From: Variovorax sp. N23
GTDB taxonomy: Bacteria; Pseudomonadota; Gammaproteobacteria; Burkholderiales; Burkholderiaceae_C
Length of the DNA: 64,000 nucleotides
Reading direction: 5' to 3'
NCBI RefSeq assembly: GCF_025486315.1
Contig: NZ_JAOOPY010000003.1
Span: forward strand, 62,001 to 126,000
Made by a program: the position numbers and the translations under genes. Every line of letters begins with the position of its first letter. The stretch's first letter is position 1. Of the stretch, positions 4,495 through 45,262 are shown piece by piece. The notes below the pieces were generated by a model. The model was given only the letters and a program-made list of their open reading frames with translations. It did no database searches and was not told where the DNA came from.

Positions 4495-4634
4495 ATCGGC
4501 GCTGCCGCGCAGGTGACAGAAAAGGGCGCAGGAGCGGCGGCGTCGCGTGAGTTCGCGGGCATTCCCTGAGGGTGGCGCGGCCGAAGACTTGTACGCTCGG
4601 TCGCGTTCGACACACCGATCCCAGGAGACATGAC

Positions 4635-5864
4635 ATGCGATTCCCCGTGAAGTTTCTCGTTGCCTCGCTCATTGCCGCCAGTGCGGCAGGCGCCTGGGCG
4701 CAAAAAGGCGAAACCGTGAAGATCGCCTGGCTCGATCCGTTGTCGGGCCTCATGGCCGCGGTGGGCACGAACCAGCTCAAGACCACGCAGTTCTTCGCCG
4801 AGGAGTTCAACCGCAAGAACCTCTCGGGCGTGAAGTTCGAGGTCATCGCCATCGACAACAAGCTGAGCCCGCAGGAAACGACCAGCGCGCTGCGCTCGGC
4901 GCAAGACCAGGGCGCCCGCTACGTCCTGCAGGGCAACGGCTCCGGCCCGGCGCTGGCCATCATCGACGCGATCGAGAAGAACAACGCGCGCAATCCGGGC
5001 AAGGAGATGCTGTACATGAACTATGCGGCGGTCGACCCGGACCTGACCAACAGCAAGTGCAGCTACTGGCATTTCCGGCTCGACGCCGACACTTCCATGA
5101 AGATGGAGGCGCTCACGACCTTCATGAAGGACCGGCCCGAGATCAAGAAGGTCTACATCCTCGGCCAGAACTATGCGCACGGCGTCCAGGTGTCGAAGTA
5201 CGCCAAGGAAGACCTCAAGGCCAAGCGCCCCGACATCCAGATCGTCGGCGACGACCTGCACCCGCTGGCCCAGGTCCGCGACTTTGCGCCCTACATCGCC
5301 AAGATCAAGCAGTCTGGCGCCGACACGGTGATCACCGGCAACTGGGGCTCGGACCTGTCGCTGCTGCTGAAGGCGGCCAACGACGCCGGGCTCGACGTGC
5401 GCTTCCTGACCTACTACGCCTACGGGGCGGGCGCACCCACCGCCATGGGCAGCGCGTCCGACGGCAAGGTGTATGCGATCGGCTACGGCCACTACAACAT
5501 GGGCGGCGAGATCCAGAAGAGCATCGACGGCTACAAGAAGAAGATGAACGACGACCTGACGCAGGCGTCGATCTATCACGCGTTCGCGCTGCTCGACAAC
5601 GCCTTCGCGCAGACGAAGTCCACCGATCCGGTGAAGGTGGCCGTGGCGCTCGAGGGCATGAAGATCAAGAGCTTCAACGGCGAAGTCGAGATGCGCAAGG
5701 CCGACCATCAGCTCCAGCAGGGGCTGTTCATCACGCGCTGGGAAAAGAAGAGTGCCAAGTACCCCTACGACGGCGAGAACACCGGCTACACGCTGGCGCC
5801 GGTGAAGTACTTCGAGCCCTACGTGGCCAGCACGCCGACGTCGTGCCAGATGAAGCGGCCCTGA
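4635..5864 (+). CDS. ABC transporter periplasmic substrate-binding protein, Liv/type 1 fold (copy 1)
   Basis: 409 residues. A signal peptide (MRFPVKFLVASLIAASAAGAWA) is cut at about residue 22. The mature part has the Peripla_BP_6 pattern (IAWLDPLSGLMAAVG, VGDDLHPLAQVRDFAPYIAKI, ITGNWGSDL). It would deliver a ligand to the LivHMGF complex encoded downstream. The family includes branched-chain amino acid, amide and aromatic acid binders, so the ligand is not fixed. I chose the ATG at 4635 because it follows a GGAGA ribosome site and begins the signal peptide; an earlier in-frame ATG at 4572 would bury the signal. Confidence 0.92.
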   Translation: MRFPVKFLVASLIAASAAGAWAQKGETVKIAWLDPLSGLMAAVGTNQLKTTQFFAEEFNRKNLSGVKFEVIAIDNKLSPQETTSALRSAQDQGARYVLQGNGSGPALAIIDAIEKNNARNPGKEMLYMNYAAVDPDLTNSKCSYWHFRLDADTSMKMEALTTFMKDRPEIKKVYILGQNYAHGVQVSKYAKEDLKAKRPDIQIVGDDLHPLAQVRDFAPYIAKIKQSGADTVITGNWGSDLSLLLKAANDAGLDVRFLTYYAYGAGAPTAMGSASDGKVYAIGYGHYNMGGEIQKSIDGYKKKMNDDLTQASIYHAFALLDNAFAQTKSTDPVKVAVALEGMKIKSFNGEVEMRKADHQLQQGLFITRWEKKSAKYPYDGENTGYTLAPVKYFEPYVASTPTSCQMKRP

Positions 5865-5906: not shown

Positions 5907-6044
5907 CTTTTTCGGAGGCTGCGTGTCGCGTGTGCGATAGAAAAAGCGCACCGGCGGCCCCCGTTGCGGGCAATCCCTGAGGGGTACGCTTGCAAAGGCT
6001 TGTAATCTCGATCGCGTTCGGACCACCGATCCAGGAGACACACC

Positions 6045-7274
6045 ATGCGATTCCCAGTGAAGTTTCTCGTTGCCTCGGTCCTCGCTGCCAATGCGGCCAG
6101 CGCCTGGGCGCAAAAGGGCGAAACCGTGAAGATCGCCTGGCTCGATCCGCTGTCGGGCCTCATGGCCGCGGTGGGCACGAACCAGCTCAAGACCTTCCAG
6201 TTCCTGGCGGAGGAGTTCAACAAGAAGAACGCCGCCGGCGTGAAGTTCGAGATCATCGGCATCGACAACAAGCTGAGCCCGCAGGAAACCACCAGCGCGC
6301 TGCGTTCGGCCATGGACCAGGGCGCACGCTACGTGGTGCAGGGCAACGGCTCCGGCCCGGCGCTGGCCATCATCGATGCGCTCGAGAAGCACAACGCCCG
6401 CAACCCGGGTAAGGAGGTGCTCTACATCAACTACGCGGCGGTCGACCCCGACCTGACCAACAGCAAGTGCAGCTACTGGCACTTCCGGCTCGACGCCGAC
6501 ACCTCGATGAAGATGGAAGCGCTCACCACCTTCATGAAGGAGCAGCCGGACATCAAGAAGGTGTACCTGATCAACCAGAACTACTCGCACGGCCAGCAGG
6601 TCTCGAAGTTCGCCAAGGAAAACCTCAAGATCAAGCGGCCCGACGTGGAGATCGTCGGTGACGATCTCCACCCGCTGGCCCAGGTGCGCGACTTCGCGCC
6701 CTACATCGCGAAGATCAAGCAGTCGGGCGCCGACACGGTGATCACCGGCAACTGGGGTTCCGACCTGGCGCTGCTCATCAAGGCGTCGAACGACTCGGGC
6801 CTGAACGTCAAGTTCTACACCTACTACGCGGTGACCACCGGTACGCCGACGGCCATGGGCGCCGCGTCGGACGGCAAGGTCTACCAGGTGGGCTACAGCC
6901 ACTACAACGCACCGGGCGTCATGGTGCCGCTGATGACCGAGTACAAGAAGCGCTTCAACGACGACATGTACACGACCGACATCTACACCGTCTATGCGAT
7001 GCTCAGCGAAGCCTTCGTGCGCACCAAGTCGACCGAACCGCTGAAGGTCGCGGCGGCGATGGAAGGCATGAAGTTCAAGAGCTTCAACGGCGACGTGGAG
7101 ATGCGCAAGGCCGACCACCAGCTGCAGCAGGGGCTCTACATCACGCGCTGGCAGAAGACCGACGCGAAGAACCCCTACAGTCCGGAGAACACCGGCTACA
7201 CGCTGGCGCCGGTCAAGTACTACGAGGCCTACGTGGCGAGCACGCCGACCACCTGCCAGATGAAGCGGCCCTGA
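6045..7274 (+). CDS. ABC transporter periplasmic substrate-binding protein, Liv/type 1 fold (copy 2)
   Basis: 409 residues, a close paralogue of the preceding protein with the same signal peptide (MRFPVKFLVASVLAANAASAWA) and the same ends (TCQMKRP). The long identical stretches are near residues 23-50 and 210-235. Differences gather around residues 265-310, where copy 1 has YAYGAGAPTAMG and copy 2 YAVTTGTPTAMG, and in the following helix; these segments can line the ligand cleft in this fold, so the two may bind different ligands. It ends just before a strong terminator that separates it from livH. Confidence 0.92.
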   Translation: MRFPVKFLVASVLAANAASAWAQKGETVKIAWLDPLSGLMAAVGTNQLKTFQFLAEEFNKKNAAGVKFEIIGIDNKLSPQETTSALRSAMDQGARYVVQGNGSGPALAIIDALEKHNARNPGKEVLYINYAAVDPDLTNSKCSYWHFRLDADTSMKMEALTTFMKEQPDIKKVYLINQNYSHGQQVSKFAKENLKIKRPDVEIVGDDLHPLAQVRDFAPYIAKIKQSGADTVITGNWGSDLALLIKASNDSGLNVKFYTYYAVTTGTPTAMGAASDGKVYQVGYSHYNAPGVMVPLMTEYKKRFNDDMYTTDIYTVYAMLSEAFVRTKSTEPLKVAAAMEGMKFKSFNGDVEMRKADHQLQQGLYITRWQKTDAKNPYSPENTGYTLAPVKYYEAYVASTPTTCQMKRP

Positions 7275-9642: not shown

Positions 9643-10406
9643 CCTTCGCATTGGAACTGAAAGACCTGCGCAAGAACTTCGGCAAGACCGAGATCATCCG
9701 TGGCGCCAACCTGGCGGTGAATGCGGGCGAGCGCATCGCCATCATCGGGCCCAACGGCGCGGGCAAGTCGACGCTGTTCAACCTCATCAGCGGGCGGCTG
9801 GCACCGACCAGCGGCGAGGTGCTGCTCAACGGCCAATTGATCAATGGCCTGCGGCCGTACGAGATCAACCGGCTGGGGCTGTCGCGCAGCTTCCAGATCA
9901 CCAACATCTTCCCCAAGCTCAGCGTGTTCGAGAACCTGCGCTGCGGCGTGCTGTGGAGCCTGGGCTACCGCTACACCTTCCTGCGCTTCCTCTCGAAGCT
10001 GGACGACGCCAACGAGCGCACCGAGCAGCTCATCCGCCAGGTCGGCCTGGAGCGCAAGCGCGACGTACTGGCCGTGAACCTCACCTACGCCGAGCAGCGC
10101 GCGCTCGAGATCGGCGTGACCATCGCCGGTGGCGCCAACGTGATCCTGCTTGACGAACCGACCGCCGGCATGAGCAAGACCGAGACCGCGCACTTCATCG
10201 CGCTCATCAAGGAGGTGACGGTGGGCCGCACGCTGCTGACGGTGGAGCATGACATGGGCGTGGTGTTCGGCCTGGCCGACCGGATCGCGGTGGTGGTGTA
10301 CGGCGAGGTGATCGCTTTCGACACGCCGGCCGCGGTCCGCGCCAACCCACGGGTGCAGGAGGCTTATCTGGGCTCTGCCGTGGCCGACGCACAAGGAGCG
10401 CACTGA
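9639..10406 (+). CDS. livG: Liv-type ABC transporter ATP-binding protein, altered signature motif
   Basis: 255 residues. Walker A is canonical (GPNGAGKS, 37-44, with K43), Walker B is VILLDEP with D172 and E173, and the switch His is H204. The ABC signature reads LTYAEQ (148-153), while LivG proteins normally have a Gly where A151 stands. The R-L-A-P-T-S-G-E segment and the C-terminal NPRVQEAYLG tail are LivG marks. The start overlaps the livM stop. See the finding on the composite ATP site with LivF. Confidence 0.94.
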   Translation: MTFALELKDLRKNFGKTEIIRGANLAVNAGERIAIIGPNGAGKSTLFNLISGRLAPTSGEVLLNGQLINGLRPYEINRLGLSRSFQITNIFPKLSVFENLRCGVLWSLGYRYTFLRFLSKLDDANERTEQLIRQVGLERKRDVLAVNLTYAEQRALEIGVTIAGGANVILLDEPTAGMSKTETAHFIALIKEVTVGRTLLTVEHDMGVVFGLADRIAVVVYGEVIAFDTPAAVRANPRVQEAYLGSAVADAQGAH

Positions 10407-10407
10407 T

Positions 10408-10479
10408 GCCCCCACGCTCATCACTTCGTGTATTCGCTGCCCCCCGAGGGGGCGCGGTCTCCCTTGGGGCGGCCCGGCG
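10408..10479 (+). repeat. 72-bp GC-rich interspersed repeat (copy in liv operon)
   Basis: The segment holds three blocks also found at 20709-20780 in the same order and nearly the same spacing: GCCCCCACGCT (10408-10418), GCTGCCCCCCGAGGGGGCGC (10436-10455) and GGGGCGGCCCGGCG (10466-10479). The middle block has a CCCCC/GGGGG hairpin. The end of the repeat lies directly before the livF ribosome binding site. It fills almost the whole 84-bp gap between livG and livF. I also recall similar elements being common in Comamonadaceae genomes, but could not check this. Confidence 0.8.
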
Positions 10480-10490
10480 GGAGACCTGAC

Positions 10491-11192
10491 ATGCTCAAAC
10501 TTCAAGACCTGCACGCCTACTACGGCAAGAGCCATGTGCTGCACGGCGTGTCCTTCGAGGTGGGCGCGGGAGAGATCGTCGCGCTGCTGGGGCGCAACGG
10601 CTCGGGCCGCTCGACCACCGCCAAGGCCATCATGGGCCTGGTGCATGCCGAGGGCGCACTGCACTGGAATGGCCAGGACATCCTGCGCCGCAAGGCCTAC
10701 GAGATCGCGCATCTGGGCATCGGCTACGTGCCCGAGAACCGGGAGATCTTCCCGAAGCTCACGGTGCACCAGAACCTGATGCTCGGCCAGAAGGGCAAGG
10801 CCGCTGCCAAGAGAAGCCGCTGGTCCTTCGACGACATGTACGCGATGTTCCCGCGGCTCAAGGAACGTCAGCACACCGAGGCTGGTGTGTTGTCGGGCGG
10901 CGAGCAGCAGATGCTCACGCTGTGCCGCACGCTGATGGGCGACCCCGACCTGATCATCATCGACGAGCCGACCGAGGGCCTCGCGCCGAAGATCGTCGAG
11001 CTGGTCGGCCAATACCTGAAGCGGCTCAAGGACCGCGGCATTTCCGTGCTGCTGATCGAGCAGAAGCTCACCATCGCGATGGCGATCTCCGACCGCGCGC
11101 TGGTCATGGGCCACGGCAGCATCGTCTTCGACGGCACGCCCGACAGCCTGCGTGCCGACGCGACTACGCGCAAGGAGTGGCTGGAGGTCTAG
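10491..11192 (+). CDS. livF: Liv-type ABC transporter ATP-binding protein, Walker A Lys replaced by Arg
   Basis: 233 residues. Walker A reads GRNGSGRSTT with R40 in place of the invariant Lys. The signature LSGGEQQ (134-140) and Walker B LIIIDEP (D158, E159) are canonical. The H-loop position is Q191 (LLIEQK), which is usual in LivF. I chose ATG 10491 because homology begins at MLKLQDLHAYYGKSHVLHGV; an upstream in-frame ATG at 10428 would translate the repeat. It forms the ATPase dimer with LivG. Confidence 0.93.
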   Translation: MLKLQDLHAYYGKSHVLHGVSFEVGAGEIVALLGRNGSGRSTTAKAIMGLVHAEGALHWNGQDILRRKAYEIAHLGIGYVPENREIFPKLTVHQNLMLGQKGKAAAKRSRWSFDDMYAMFPRLKERQHTEAGVLSGGEQQMLTLCRTLMGDPDLIIIDEPTEGLAPKIVELVGQYLKRLKDRGISVLLIEQKLTIAMAISDRALVMGHGSIVFDGTPDSLRADATTRKEWLEV

Positions 11193-20384: not shown

Positions 20385-22106
20385 ATGGACGCGACGCACG
20401 AGGTCTTCAACCAGCCTGCGCCGCTCGCGGGCTACAACCTGTTCGAAACGAACCGCGCGCTGCGCGATGCGTTGGCTTTCAACGCGCCGCAGCTCGACCT
20501 GACCTCACTGGATACGCTGGGTGCCGCCATCGGTACCGTCGACATGCAGGCACACGCGCGGCTCGCGAACACGAACGCGCCGGTGCTGCACACGCACGAT
20601 CGCTTCGGGCGGCGCATCGACGAGGTGGAGTTCCATCCGAGCTATCACGCGCTGATGACTGCTGCGGTCGGCGCGGGTCTGCACGGCGCGCCGTGGGCCG
20701 TGAATGTGGCCCCCACGCTGGCCGCTGCGCGTGCTGCGCTGCCCCCCGAGGGGGCGCTCGCGGCTCGGGGCGGCCCGGCGCCACTCGATGCGTCGCCGCA
20801 TGTCCAGCGCGCGGCCGGCTTCATGCTCTTCACCGAGCTCGAGCCGTCCATCCTGTGCCCGATCTCGATGACCTACGCCGCCACGCCGGCGCTGCGTGGC
20901 AATGCGGCGGTTTTCGCCGACTGGGGACCGAAGCTCACCAGCCACGCCTACGACCCGGCGCTGGTGCCCTGGCGCGACAAGCCCGGCGTGACCATGGGCA
21001 TGGGCATGACCGAGAAGCAGGGCGGCTCCGACGTGCGCGCCAACACCACGCAGGCGGTGCGCGACGGCAGCGACGCCTGGGGCGAGCGCTATCGGCTGAC
21101 CGGTCACAAGTGGTTCTTCTCGGCGCCCATGTGCGATGCCTTCCTGGTGCTGGCGCAGGCGCCGGCCGGGCTCAGCTGCTTCTTCCTGCCGCGCGTGTTG
21201 CCCGATGGGGCGCGCAACGCAATCCGCATCCAGCGCCTGAAGGACAAGCTGGGCAACAAGGCCAACGCGAGTTCCGAGGTCGAGTTCCACGCCGCCACCG
21301 CCTGGCTGGTCGGCGAGGAGGGCCGCGGCGTGCCGCAGATCCTCGAGATGGGCACGATGACGCGGCTCGACTGCGCGCTCGGCACCACCGGGCTGATGCG
21401 CCAGGCGCTGGCGCTCGCGCTGAACCACACGGCACAGCGCAACGCCTTCGGCAAGCCGCTGATCGCACAGCCGCTGATGAAGAACGTGCTGGCCGACCTG
21501 GCGCTCGAAAGCGAAGCCGCTACCGCGCTCGCCGTCCGCCTGGCCCGTGCCTTCGACCACCCCGACGACGCGCACGAGCGCCTCATGGCGCGGCTGCTCA
21601 CGCCGGTCGCCAAGTTCTGGATCTGCAAACGCGGCAGCCACTTCGCCCAGGAGGCGATGGAATGCCTGGGTGGCAACGGCTACGTGGAGGAGGGCGGCGA
21701 AGGCGTGATGGCCCGCATCTACCGCGAGATGCCGCTCAACTCGATCTGGGAGGGCGCCGGCAACATCATGGCGCTCGACCTGCTGCGGGCCACGCGCAAG
21801 GGCGACGTGGTCGCCGCGCTCGCCCATGAACTCTCGCCCGCGCGCGGCGCGCATGCCGCGCTCGACCGCCTCGCCGCTGCGCTGCCGTCGCGCATCGAGG
21901 CGATGGCCACCGAGCCCGAGGCGCGCCGGCTCGCGCAGGACGTGGCGCTGGCGGTGCAGGCCGCACTGCTGGCGCAGACCGCGCCGCCCGCCGTGGTCGA
22001 CGCCTTCTGCGCTTCACGCCTCGGTGGCGACTGGGGCCATGCCTTCGGCACGCTCGGCACCGGTGCCGACGTCGATTCGATCATCGCCCGCGCGATGCCA
22101 CGCTGA
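20385..22106 (+). CDS. aidB: AidB-like acyl-CoA dehydrogenase with a repeat-encoded insertion
   Basis: 573 residues. The N-terminus (HEVFNQPAPLAGYNLF) and the motifs MGMTEKQGGSDVRANT, GHKWFFSAPMCDAFLVLAQ, RLKDKLGNKANASSEVEF and MPLNSIWEGAGNIMALDLLR are those of AidB, an FAD protein induced in the E. coli adaptive response, here within a catabolic cluster. Residues 109-132 are encoded by the 72-bp repeat at 20709-20780 and are absent from E. coli AidB as I recall it, where a short stretch joins the Trp before and the R-A-A-x-F-M-L after. The ATG at 20385 follows CCGGAGG. Confidence 0.9.
   Translation: MDATHEVFNQPAPLAGYNLFETNRALRDALAFNAPQLDLTSLDTLGAAIGTVDMQAHARLANTNAPVLHTHDRFGRRIDEVEFHPSYHALMTAAVGAGLHGAPWAVNVAPTLAAARAALPPEGALAARGGPAPLDASPHVQRAAGFMLFTELEPSILCPISMTYAATPALRGNAAVFADWGPKLTSHAYDPALVPWRDKPGVTMGMGMTEKQGGSDVRANTTQAVRDGSDAWGERYRLTGHKWFFSAPMCDAFLVLAQAPAGLSCFFLPRVLPDGARNAIRIQRLKDKLGNKANASSEVEFHAATAWLVGEEGRGVPQILEMGTMTRLDCALGTTGLMRQALALALNHTAQRNAFGKPLIAQPLMKNVLADLALESEAATALAVRLARAFDHPDDAHERLMARLLTPVAKFWICKRGSHFAQEAMECLGGNGYVEEGGEGVMARIYREMPLNSIWEGAGNIMALDLLRATRKGDVVAALAHELSPARGAHAALDRLAAALPSRIEAMATEPEARRLAQDVALAVQAALLAQTAPPAVVDAFCASRLGGDWGHAFGTLGTGADVDSIIARAMPR
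20709..20780 (+). repeat. 72-bp GC-rich interspersed repeat inside the aidB-like gene
   Basis: The same three blocks as at 10408-10479 are present: GCCCCCACGCT (20709-20719), GCTGCCCCCCGAGGGGGCGC (20738-20757) and GGGGCGGCCCGGCG (20767-20780). The copy is exactly 72 bp, that is 24 codons, and starts at the first base of codon 109, so the reading frame stays open through it. It encodes an Ala/Pro/Gly/Arg-rich stretch beginning APTLAAARAALPPEG. Confidence 0.82.
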
Positions 22107-29753: not shown

Positions 29754-30310
29754 CGGCGACCGGTGGCTTCGCCATCTTCCCGACGGCCATCGGCACCTGC
29801 GGCGTCGCATGGGGTCCGCGGGGCATCGTCGGCGCGCAGTTGCCTGAGGCGGAGAACGAAGAGGCTGCGACGTTGGCGCGCATGGCCGCTCGCTTTCCTG
29901 CGCTGACGGAAGCCGAGCCGCCGCCGTCGACGCAGGCGGCCATCGAGGCGCTGCGTGCGGTGTTGGCGGGCACATCGAAGGATCTGTTGCTGGACGTGGT
30001 GCTCGACGAATCCGACGTACCGGAATTCCACCGACGCGTGTACGCGTTCGCGCGCGCTATTCCGCCCGGCGAGACGCGCACCTATGGCGAGGTGGCCGAG
30101 GCGGTGGGTGGCAAGGGCCTGGCCCGTGCGGTGGGTCAGGCGCTCGGGCGCAACCCCTTCGCGCCCATGGTGCCGTGCCATCGTGTGCTGGCGGCCGACG
30201 GTCGGCCCGGCGGCTTCTCGGCGCCGGGCGGCGCGCTGGCCAAGCTGCGCATGCTGGCGAAAGAAGGGGCGCGGCCCCTTGGCACCGCGCCCCTGTTCGA
30301 CGATCTGTGA
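29750..30310 (+). CDS. ogt: Methylated-DNA-protein-cysteine S-methyltransferase
   Basis: 186 residues. The acceptor Cys is C143 in MVPCHRVLAADG, with RTYGEVAEAVG and the Asn hinge in ALGRNPFAP, as in Ogt/MGMT. It removes O6-alkyl groups from guanine in a suicide reaction. The last residues (173-185) are encoded by a 37-nt sequence that recurs, inverted, as a terminator at 45220-45256, so the C-terminus may have been replaced or extended by that element. Translation overlaps the LysR gene. Confidence 0.95.
   Translation: MTATGGFAIFPTAIGTCGVAWGPRGIVGAQLPEAENEEAATLARMAARFPALTEAEPPPSTQAAIEALRAVLAGTSKDLLLDVVLDESDVPEFHRRVYAFARAIPPGETRTYGEVAEAVGGKGLARAVGQALGRNPFAPMVPCHRVLAADGRPGGFSAPGGALAKLRMLAKEGARPLGTAPLFDDL
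30259..30292 (-). terminator. Terminator-like hairpin within the ogt 3' end, acting on the minus strand
   Basis: GGGCGCGG (30267-30274) and CCGCGCCC (30285-30292) form an 8-bp stem. Read on the minus strand it is followed by a pyrimidine run C-TTCTTTC. It lies 50 bp beyond the stop of the minus-strand gene at 30342-30692 and would end its transcript while being part of the ogt coding sequence. Confidence 0.55.
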
Positions 30311-45189: not shown

Positions 45190-45230
45190 CAACAGGCCGG
45201 GCGCGCATCGCCCGGTCAGTCGTCGAACAG

Positions 45231-45262
45231 GGGCGCGGTGCCAAGGGGCCGCGCCCTTTTTT
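45231..45262 (+). terminator. Rho-independent terminator after the OmpA-like gene
   Basis: GGGCGCGG (45231-45238) and CCGCGCCC (45249-45256) form an 8-bp stem, followed by six T (45257-45262). The 37 bases 45220-45256 equal the reverse complement of 30267-30303 at the end of ogt. Confidence 0.88.

Follow-up and report, generated by a model that had tools for sequence, protein, structure and literature searches.

A probable BRE-like palindromic repeat carried in frame by the aidB gene of Variovorax sp. N23, in a loop that appears to have been hit repeatedly

Introduction

The best-known palindromes that code for protein are those of Rickettsia, together with intragenic REPs reported here and there. 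The aidB-like gene of Variovorax sp. N23 raises the question of whether a short interspersed repeat has become part of a conserved protein in this bacterium and, if so, how it came to be kept. The gene lies in the window, that is, the whole stretch of 64,000 nt that was analysed (contig NZ_JAOOPY010000003.1, positions 62,001 to 126,000). The original prediction, made from the letters of this stretch, was that a mobile or REP-like element, also present between two genes of the window, had been accepted by aidB as 24 in-frame codons. The features on which the argument turns are as follows.

20385..22106, plus strand: aidB-like gene, AidB / acyl-CoA dehydrogenase family, 573 codons, start ATG at 20385
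20700..20789, plus strand: 90-nt segment, codons 106-135; the G240 genome has 9 nt at the same place (net +81 nt, 27 codons)
20707..20791, plus strand: full BRE-like repeat, model R1 positions 1-85, 75.8 bits
20709..20780, plus strand: 72 bp of the original prediction, codons 109-132, with the blocks matching 10408-10479
20741..20755, plus strand: core hairpin GCCCCCCGAGGGGGC, near-invariant among copies; consensus structure pairs 37-53 to 42-47
20756..20789, plus strand: third hairpin, partly decayed, 5 of 9 arm positions paired
10406..10490, plus strand: second window copy, intergenic, from TGA 10404-10406 to ATG 10491-10493

Results

The aidB gene and its insert

Both its N-terminal domain and its fold place the product of the gene in AidB. 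It scores 573.9 bits against NF008594 (NCBIfam, cut-off 545) and contains the AidB_N domain PF18158 above the Pfam cut-off. Its top PDB sequence match is 3DJL, and Foldseek returned the same entry, E. coli AidB, as the top match of its model (TM 0.86 by query length).

The three blocks common to 10408-10479 and 20709-20780 are exact matches, both on the plus strand, and occur nowhere else in the window; a gapped pattern of two blocks matches the window twice, versus 0 matches in 100 shuffles. As predicted, codon 109 begins at position 20709 and the reading frame passes through the segment. The extent of the insertion had to be revised: the covariance model matches 20707-20791, and the net insertion relative to the nearest genome searched (G240) is 27 codons, not 24. 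The 24 codons first noticed are the best-conserved part of the repeat, distinct from the insertion itself. Nor does the claim stand that AidB aligns without a gap once the 72 bp are removed, as 32 residues of the Variovorax protein lie between two matched segments where 3DJL has 6.

In G240, whose aidB is 94% identical in DNA over positions 405-1715 and 86% over positions 1-316, the site is empty, without the repeat. The genus Variovorax is borne out by the same-genus genome G122, whose aidB loop equals that of the public Variovorax sp. Root473. Between the two genomes, dN/dS is 0.11 for aidB, 0.07 for thrC, 0.19 for moaE and 0.14 for cobQ, figures that span the entire period since the split, the time before insertion included. 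The 75.8 bits of the aidB copy come from a model that has this copy among its 67 sequences; against a hand-made consensus, its score was reached by 0 of 1000 shuffles. Judged by its sequence, the aidB segment is one copy of an interspersed repeat of about 85 nt with three hairpins. The predicted tryptic peptides of the insert are AALPPEGALAAR and GGPAPLDASPHVQR.

AlphaFold2, run on 44 AidB proteins, gave a mean pLDDT of 84.3. Residues 113-116 and 118-134 fall below 50, and 118-134 are without regular structure between helices 112-117 and 138-152. The insert is thus predicted to occupy a floppy, disordered loop, in line with the loop first proposed; low confidence at an insert is partly expected, since the alignment held only 44 sequences.

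A repeat with covarying hairpins

Three hairpins make up the repeat unit of about 85 nt: the inner pairs of the first vary, the core GCCCCCCGAGGGGGC is nearly constant, and the arms of the third vary from copy to copy around the loop TTGGGGCGGCCCGG. We aligned 67 copies from the fetched loci (68 were found and one divergent copy was omitted), a non-random set because 40 of its loci had been picked by similarity to the aidB copy. RNAalifold gave 21 consensus pairs, and for 12 of them at least one copy is changed on both sides with the pair kept. A second set, not picked by similarity to aidB, comprises 61 copies scoring at least 50 bits, 45 from seven Variovorax genomes and the best 16 of G114; it leaves out G243, G204 and G159, the most copy-rich of the searched genomes. 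In this set the third-hairpin arms pair at 7.59 of 9 positions, versus 4.93 with shuffled partners (maximum 5.59, 500 shuffles). The mean is 7.4 of 9 for the 18 gene-internal copies, among which the aidB copy has 5. The covarying hairpins and the arm pairing argue for an element under selection as a fold, and we infer that the repeat is, or recently was, selected as folded RNA or single-stranded DNA.

The GC content of eight matches scoring at least 50 bits is 71-84%. Four copy-bearing loci matched no Rfam family. The copies in thrC and moaE had prompted the idea that the 3′ arm of the third hairpin is target DNA, its complement being copied into the element; it was dropped, and the recurrence of similar arm sequences in unrelated hosts indicates that both arms are part of the repeat. 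Separately, three loci of the N23 genome (L041, L044, L186) have in common only a 3′ module, CTTGGGGCGGCCCGGCG (or CAGCG), which follows another kind of hairpin, of the GCACTGCGGTGC type, and are perhaps a second, mosaic repeat family.

Distribution and mobility

The proposed genome search for the core was carried out on the 5.29 Mb and 45 contigs of the N23 genome, where a 16-mer has 11 exact copies versus 0 for the reversed control. At E <= 0.01 the covariance model has 22 matches there, 16 of them strong. Copy number differs strongly within Variovorax, with at least 147, 55, 33, 26, 11, 6, 4, 2 and 1 model matches in nine other genomes of the genus (up to 150 candidates scored in each), and tandem arrays occur in G243, G204 and G200. 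When 274 genomes across the class were scanned with stricter filters, the best 16 candidates per genome being scored, at least four had a match at E <= 1e-5, three of which belong to the family of N23, its own genome included. Seven matching plasmid records come from Burkholderia, Paraburkholderia, Variovorax, Azoarcus and Acidovorax; in an incomplete gene table, no listed gene lies under the best match of any of them. The repeat had no match in phages, and neither its core sequence nor the peptide PHPNPLP was found in the open-licence literature.

No clear target-site duplication was seen for gene-internal copies: their mean shared flanking word is 5.0, versus 4.78 after shuffling, and 53 of 300 shuffles are as high. 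For junction copies the mean is 5.37 versus 4.83, with 0 of 300 shuffles as high, an excess that may reflect their common TGA/ATG context. As a candidate mover, the Y1/RAYT transposase (PF01797) was rejected for want of a link to the repeat. It has 10 matches in 9 of 10 genomes, one gene in most, and G182 has none, yet holds four repeat matches; in the 10 neighbourhoods around PF01797 matches, no repeat was found at E <= 0.01. The description as REP-like fits the behaviour of the element, a likeness short of membership in the GTAG/CGTC REPs.

Two other repetitions were noticed in the window. The stretches 30261-30303 and 45220-45262, separated by 15 kb and containing GGGGCGCGGCCCC, are 95% complementary over 43 nt in inverted orientation and may represent a further interspersed palindrome; when a 20-base piece was compared with the 415 fetched loci, none matched it exactly. 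Between 4621-5864 and 6031-7274, two pairs of stretches are 82-88% alike and 1410 bases apart, likely a tandem gene duplication.

Copies inside other genes

Of the 61 strong copies, which come from eight genomes, 18 (9 sense, 9 antisense) are gene-internal and keep the reading frame, free of stops. Gene phase was assigned independently of annotation, by the GC content at each codon position of the 240-nt flanks. Seventeen of the 18 were called automatically with in-frame status as a criterion, and moaE, misjudged on account of its short N-terminal part, was added by hand. Whether genes are broken had therefore to be judged from the other 43 copies; among the 61 as a whole, none clearly disrupts a gene. 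In L363 the upstream frame crosses the element and stops just past it, and in 7 of the 43 the flanks are assigned to different strands, some by weak margins. In an earlier, non-random set, 34 of 68 copies had been same-frame and stop-free; two copies counted as internal there were rejected, L004 as it turned out to be a junction copy and L311, read likewise, as it starts two codons past a stop.

In the N23 genome, sense copies lie in thrC, aidB, cobQ and moaE, and antisense copies in a fatty-acid-hydroxylase-like gene and at the receiver-domain end of a hybrid sensor kinase; a weaker antisense match (37.1 bits) lies within an ABC ATPase gene. The thrC, moaE and cobQ products of G240 are likewise without the extra residues, so that for these three genes and aidB the repeat stands in a conserved gene, in frame and stop-free, opposite an empty orthologous site. 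The thrC of G240 (L249), without the repeat, has a loop at this site, TSGRVQATPE, slightly longer than in most of the relatives shown.

Several loops recur as landing sites across genomes when the 61 copies and the wider, non-random set are taken together: Mpl in four, CobQ in several, and MoaE, UvrA and HrpA in two each. All of these names except CobQ and MoaE were read from the sequences by eye. At the CobQ loop of N23, other Variovorax carry sequence like the unrelated, CCCTCACCC-type repeat that also occurs in AidB loops (see below) (L221/L256, L229, L235) or, in L222, a remnant of the first repeat. Elsewhere in this protein, near the N-terminus and away from that loop, the cobQ of G233 (L293, minus strand, about 683-860) has two tandem copies in frame.

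By eye, the nine sense copies all use the frame LPPEGA and the nine antisense copies all use APSGGS. Stop codons do not close the other two sense frames in most of the 18 gene-internal copies: one is open in 14 and the other in 13. Six copies of the wider, non-random set use another antisense frame, which makes the rule a bias only. The unused sense frames would encode Arg-rich peptides, one of them containing Cys, so that a filter at the protein level would be the simplest reading of the bias.

Copies at gene junctions

The prediction could have failed if the core were absent between genes; it is not, as 43 of the 61 strong copies are intergenic. The upstream gene is on the same strand in 37 of these 43, and in 33 of the 37 its stop codon lies at -8 to +3 of the element start. 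The downstream gene is on the same strand in 38, with its start codon at -4 to +6 of the element end in 26. Both ends fall within a few bases of stop and start codons in 22 of the 43, the 10406-10490 copy of the window among them; some junction copies look orthologous by their flanks, and these counts are therefore not all independent. In 8 of the 26 copies that end at a start codon, the 3′ arm ahead of it contains a GGAG, GAGG or AGGA motif, which the hairpin would cover. The genes on either side of the 10406-10490 copy are both transporter ATPase-like by eye, and GGGAG at 10479-10483, in its 3′ arm, has a Shine-Dalgarno-like position inside the hairpin.

One AidB loop, apparently repeated hits

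We inspected 110 AidB loci from two overlapping sources, 30 from genomes of the family (150 searched, 94 with a match) and 80, the best of 514, from a scan of public genomes. Of these, 99 distinct proteins whose start codon fell within the range expected were placed on a tree from which the loop had been excised beforehand, a quick LG+G4 tree with 36 of 96 inner branches weak. Loop classes were assigned by peptide pattern. The loop is short and without repeat in 74 of the 99, and longer and unassigned to a repeat in 10. In some orthologues (L077, L078, L123) the loop is moderately longer without repeat similarity.

The sense repeat occurs in five rows, namely N23, L072 (loop identical to that of Curvibacter delicatus), Variovorax sp. 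MHTC-1 and two Polaromonas, and accounts for five changes on the tree, each required by starred branches. In seven rows the loop is filled by an unrelated palindromic repeat, complete or in part (SPHPNPLPxGEG...), with seven changes, again all forced by starred branches. It is itself interspersed: the exact pattern is found 17 times in G243 (control 0), once in N23, once in G200, twice in G201 and never in G240. The first repeat is antisense in Polaromonas L177, which shares a starred clade with the sense L149 and the empty L179. L073 has a partly deleted copy, and L076 a decayed one with its frame intact and the core hairpin gone (15.2 bits, E 0.22; 0 of 1000 shuffles reach its alignment score). 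Among the 11 loci outside the tree, four have inserts: the loops of L163 and L167 equal those of L072 and L073, L169 (Polaromonas) matches the repeat with 53.9 bits, and L175 has the unrelated repeat.

Change counts alone do not distinguish gain from loss; separate gains in the AidB loop are the simplest reading of the tree. It had been stated beforehand that the same residues in distant genera would speak against an insertion. Curvibacter and Polaromonas AidB do carry the repeat, which formally goes against the idea, but a separate change for each of the five sense copies and the one antisense Polaromonas copy strengthen it despite these carriers. The same AidB loop thus appears to have been hit separately many times, by both orientations of the repeat and by a second, unrelated one, which suggests that pieces of parasitic DNA became protein-coding repeatedly.

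Discussion

The empty site in G240, the AidB tree and the loop predicted to be disordered bear out the central proposal that aidB accepted an interspersed repeat as coding sequence. We consider it probable, at about 0.85, that a non-autonomous structured repeat inserted into aidB after the split from G240, stayed in frame and was tolerated. A three-hairpin repeat of about 85 nt would spread in Variovorax and related Burkholderiales without encoding its own mover, and one copy would have entered aidB once the lineage of N23 had parted from that of G240. Because the insertion is in frame, free of stop codons and in a loop between two helices, AidB would have remained workable and the copy would have been retained. 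It should then be translated as about 27 extra residues, presumably harmless or nearly neutral. Insertions that break a gene or its frame would be purged by selection, and copies at junctions or in frame in tolerant loops would persist; the same filter could account for the other internal copies and for the remaining ones at or near gene boundaries.

Could the insert instead be useful, a Pro/Ala/Gly-rich segment that alters the interactions, stability or DNA or membrane contact of AidB, its recurrence being due to positive selection? The 12 changes in one loop, sense and unrelated repeat together, the single frame per orientation in the 18 gene-internal copies and the decayed L076, which keeps its frame though the core hairpin is gone, would all suit such a benefit. 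We nevertheless hold it to be improbable, since the loop is filled by different sequences in different orientations and is predicted disordered, 74 of 99 orthologues show a short loop free of any insert, and a partly deleted copy exists (L073/L167). A segment removed before it reaches the protein, by splicing of the message or by ribosomal bypassing, might be expected of so strongly structured an element with covarying hairpins; the frame and stop-freedom of the internal copies would then be needless, and no Rfam family is matched by the four copy-bearing loci, so that we regard it as very unlikely.

Inheritance from an ancestor with loss in most lineages would explain the presence of the repeat in the same loop of Variovorax, Curvibacter and Polaromonas, and the tree counts alone are compatible with loss. 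Against it stand the starred branches, which force one change for each sense row, the opposite orientations in a single clade, the arms and first-hairpin variants that differ among copies, and the empty site of the nearest genome searched; we give it hardly any credence. The same slight weight falls to ordinary variation in loop length with a chance likeness to a GC-rich repeat: L077, L078 and L123 do have moderately longer loops without repeat similarity, but the model match of 75.8 bits (from a model that includes the aidB copy), the exact blocks common to aidB and the intergenic copy, and the consensus score reached by none of 1000 shuffles are hard to reconcile with chance. An insertion that was kept in frame and tolerated is thus the reading that we retain.

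The repeat is probably the published Beta-proteobacterial Repeat Element (BRE), to which we liken it by description rather than by sequence. In the excerpted text of Hot et al. 2011 (PMC3110155), full-length BREs measure 75-91 bp in Bordetella and are GC-rich, their betaproteobacterial hosts include Polaromonas, Acidovorax, Delftia and Azoarcus, and copies are mostly intergenic, with tandem arrays and some copies wholly within coding sequences. The repeat described here agrees in size (85 model positions) and GC-richness, as well as in being betaproteobacterial, mostly intergenic, arrayed in tandem and sometimes within open reading frames. The frame analysis, empty sites, covariation and recurrent hits on one loop are not reported in that excerpt (PMC3110155), and we found no study of in-frame BRE insertions in the open-licence literature.

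Two other systems offer a parallel, as far as the excerpts of the respective papers go. Rickettsia palindromic elements (RPEs) of obligate intracellular alphaproteobacteria are short palindromes, of about 150 bp (PMC10969869), that sit in housekeeping genes without shifting the frame and should be translated (PMC10969869, PMC3733652). Like them, the present repeat is palindromic and in frame inside genes; it differs in its length of about 85 nt, its GC-richness and its hosts, Variovorax and relatives. GTAG/CGTC REPs, 20-40 bp long with GTAG or CGTC tags, the GTAG type having a proposed RAYT transposase, lie in coding regions of several species, uvrA included, where they may be neutral if in loops or linkers, and their intergenic copies are near the 3′ end of the upstream gene with varying distances at the other end (PMC3733652). 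Our repeat shares the palindromes within coding regions and the proximity to the upstream 3′ end, whereas its far end coincides, to within a few bases, with the start codon of the downstream gene in 26 of 38 cases, and no link to a Y1 (PF01797) transposase was found. By analogy with RPEs and intragenic REPs, the best reading is that insertions into genes may survive only in frame and in tolerant loops. New here are the apparent repeated colonisation of a single loop by members of two repeat families, the frame bias and the stop-to-start placement.

A further, tentative possibility, which we think more doubtful than not, is that the repeat is fitted for carriage by genes: it would have, for the most part, one protein-friendly frame per orientation despite the openness of others, a small set of recurrent landing loops (AidB, CobQ, Mpl, MoaE, UvrA, HrpA) and a preference for stop-to-start sites that leaves both flanking genes intact, some junction copies supplying a Shine-Dalgarno-like arm. 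If this were true, parasitic DNA would continually feed both the convergent growth of loops in core enzymes and control at operon junctions.

Altogether, the AidB loop amounts to a natural experiment among many sequenced relatives, with sites that lack an insert, copies in both orientations and two unrelated repeats. Questions that become testable are whether inserts of this kind have a use or are neutral, which of the loops in core enzymes can accommodate an insertion, and by what route a repeat lacking a known transposase moves while its hairpins stay paired.
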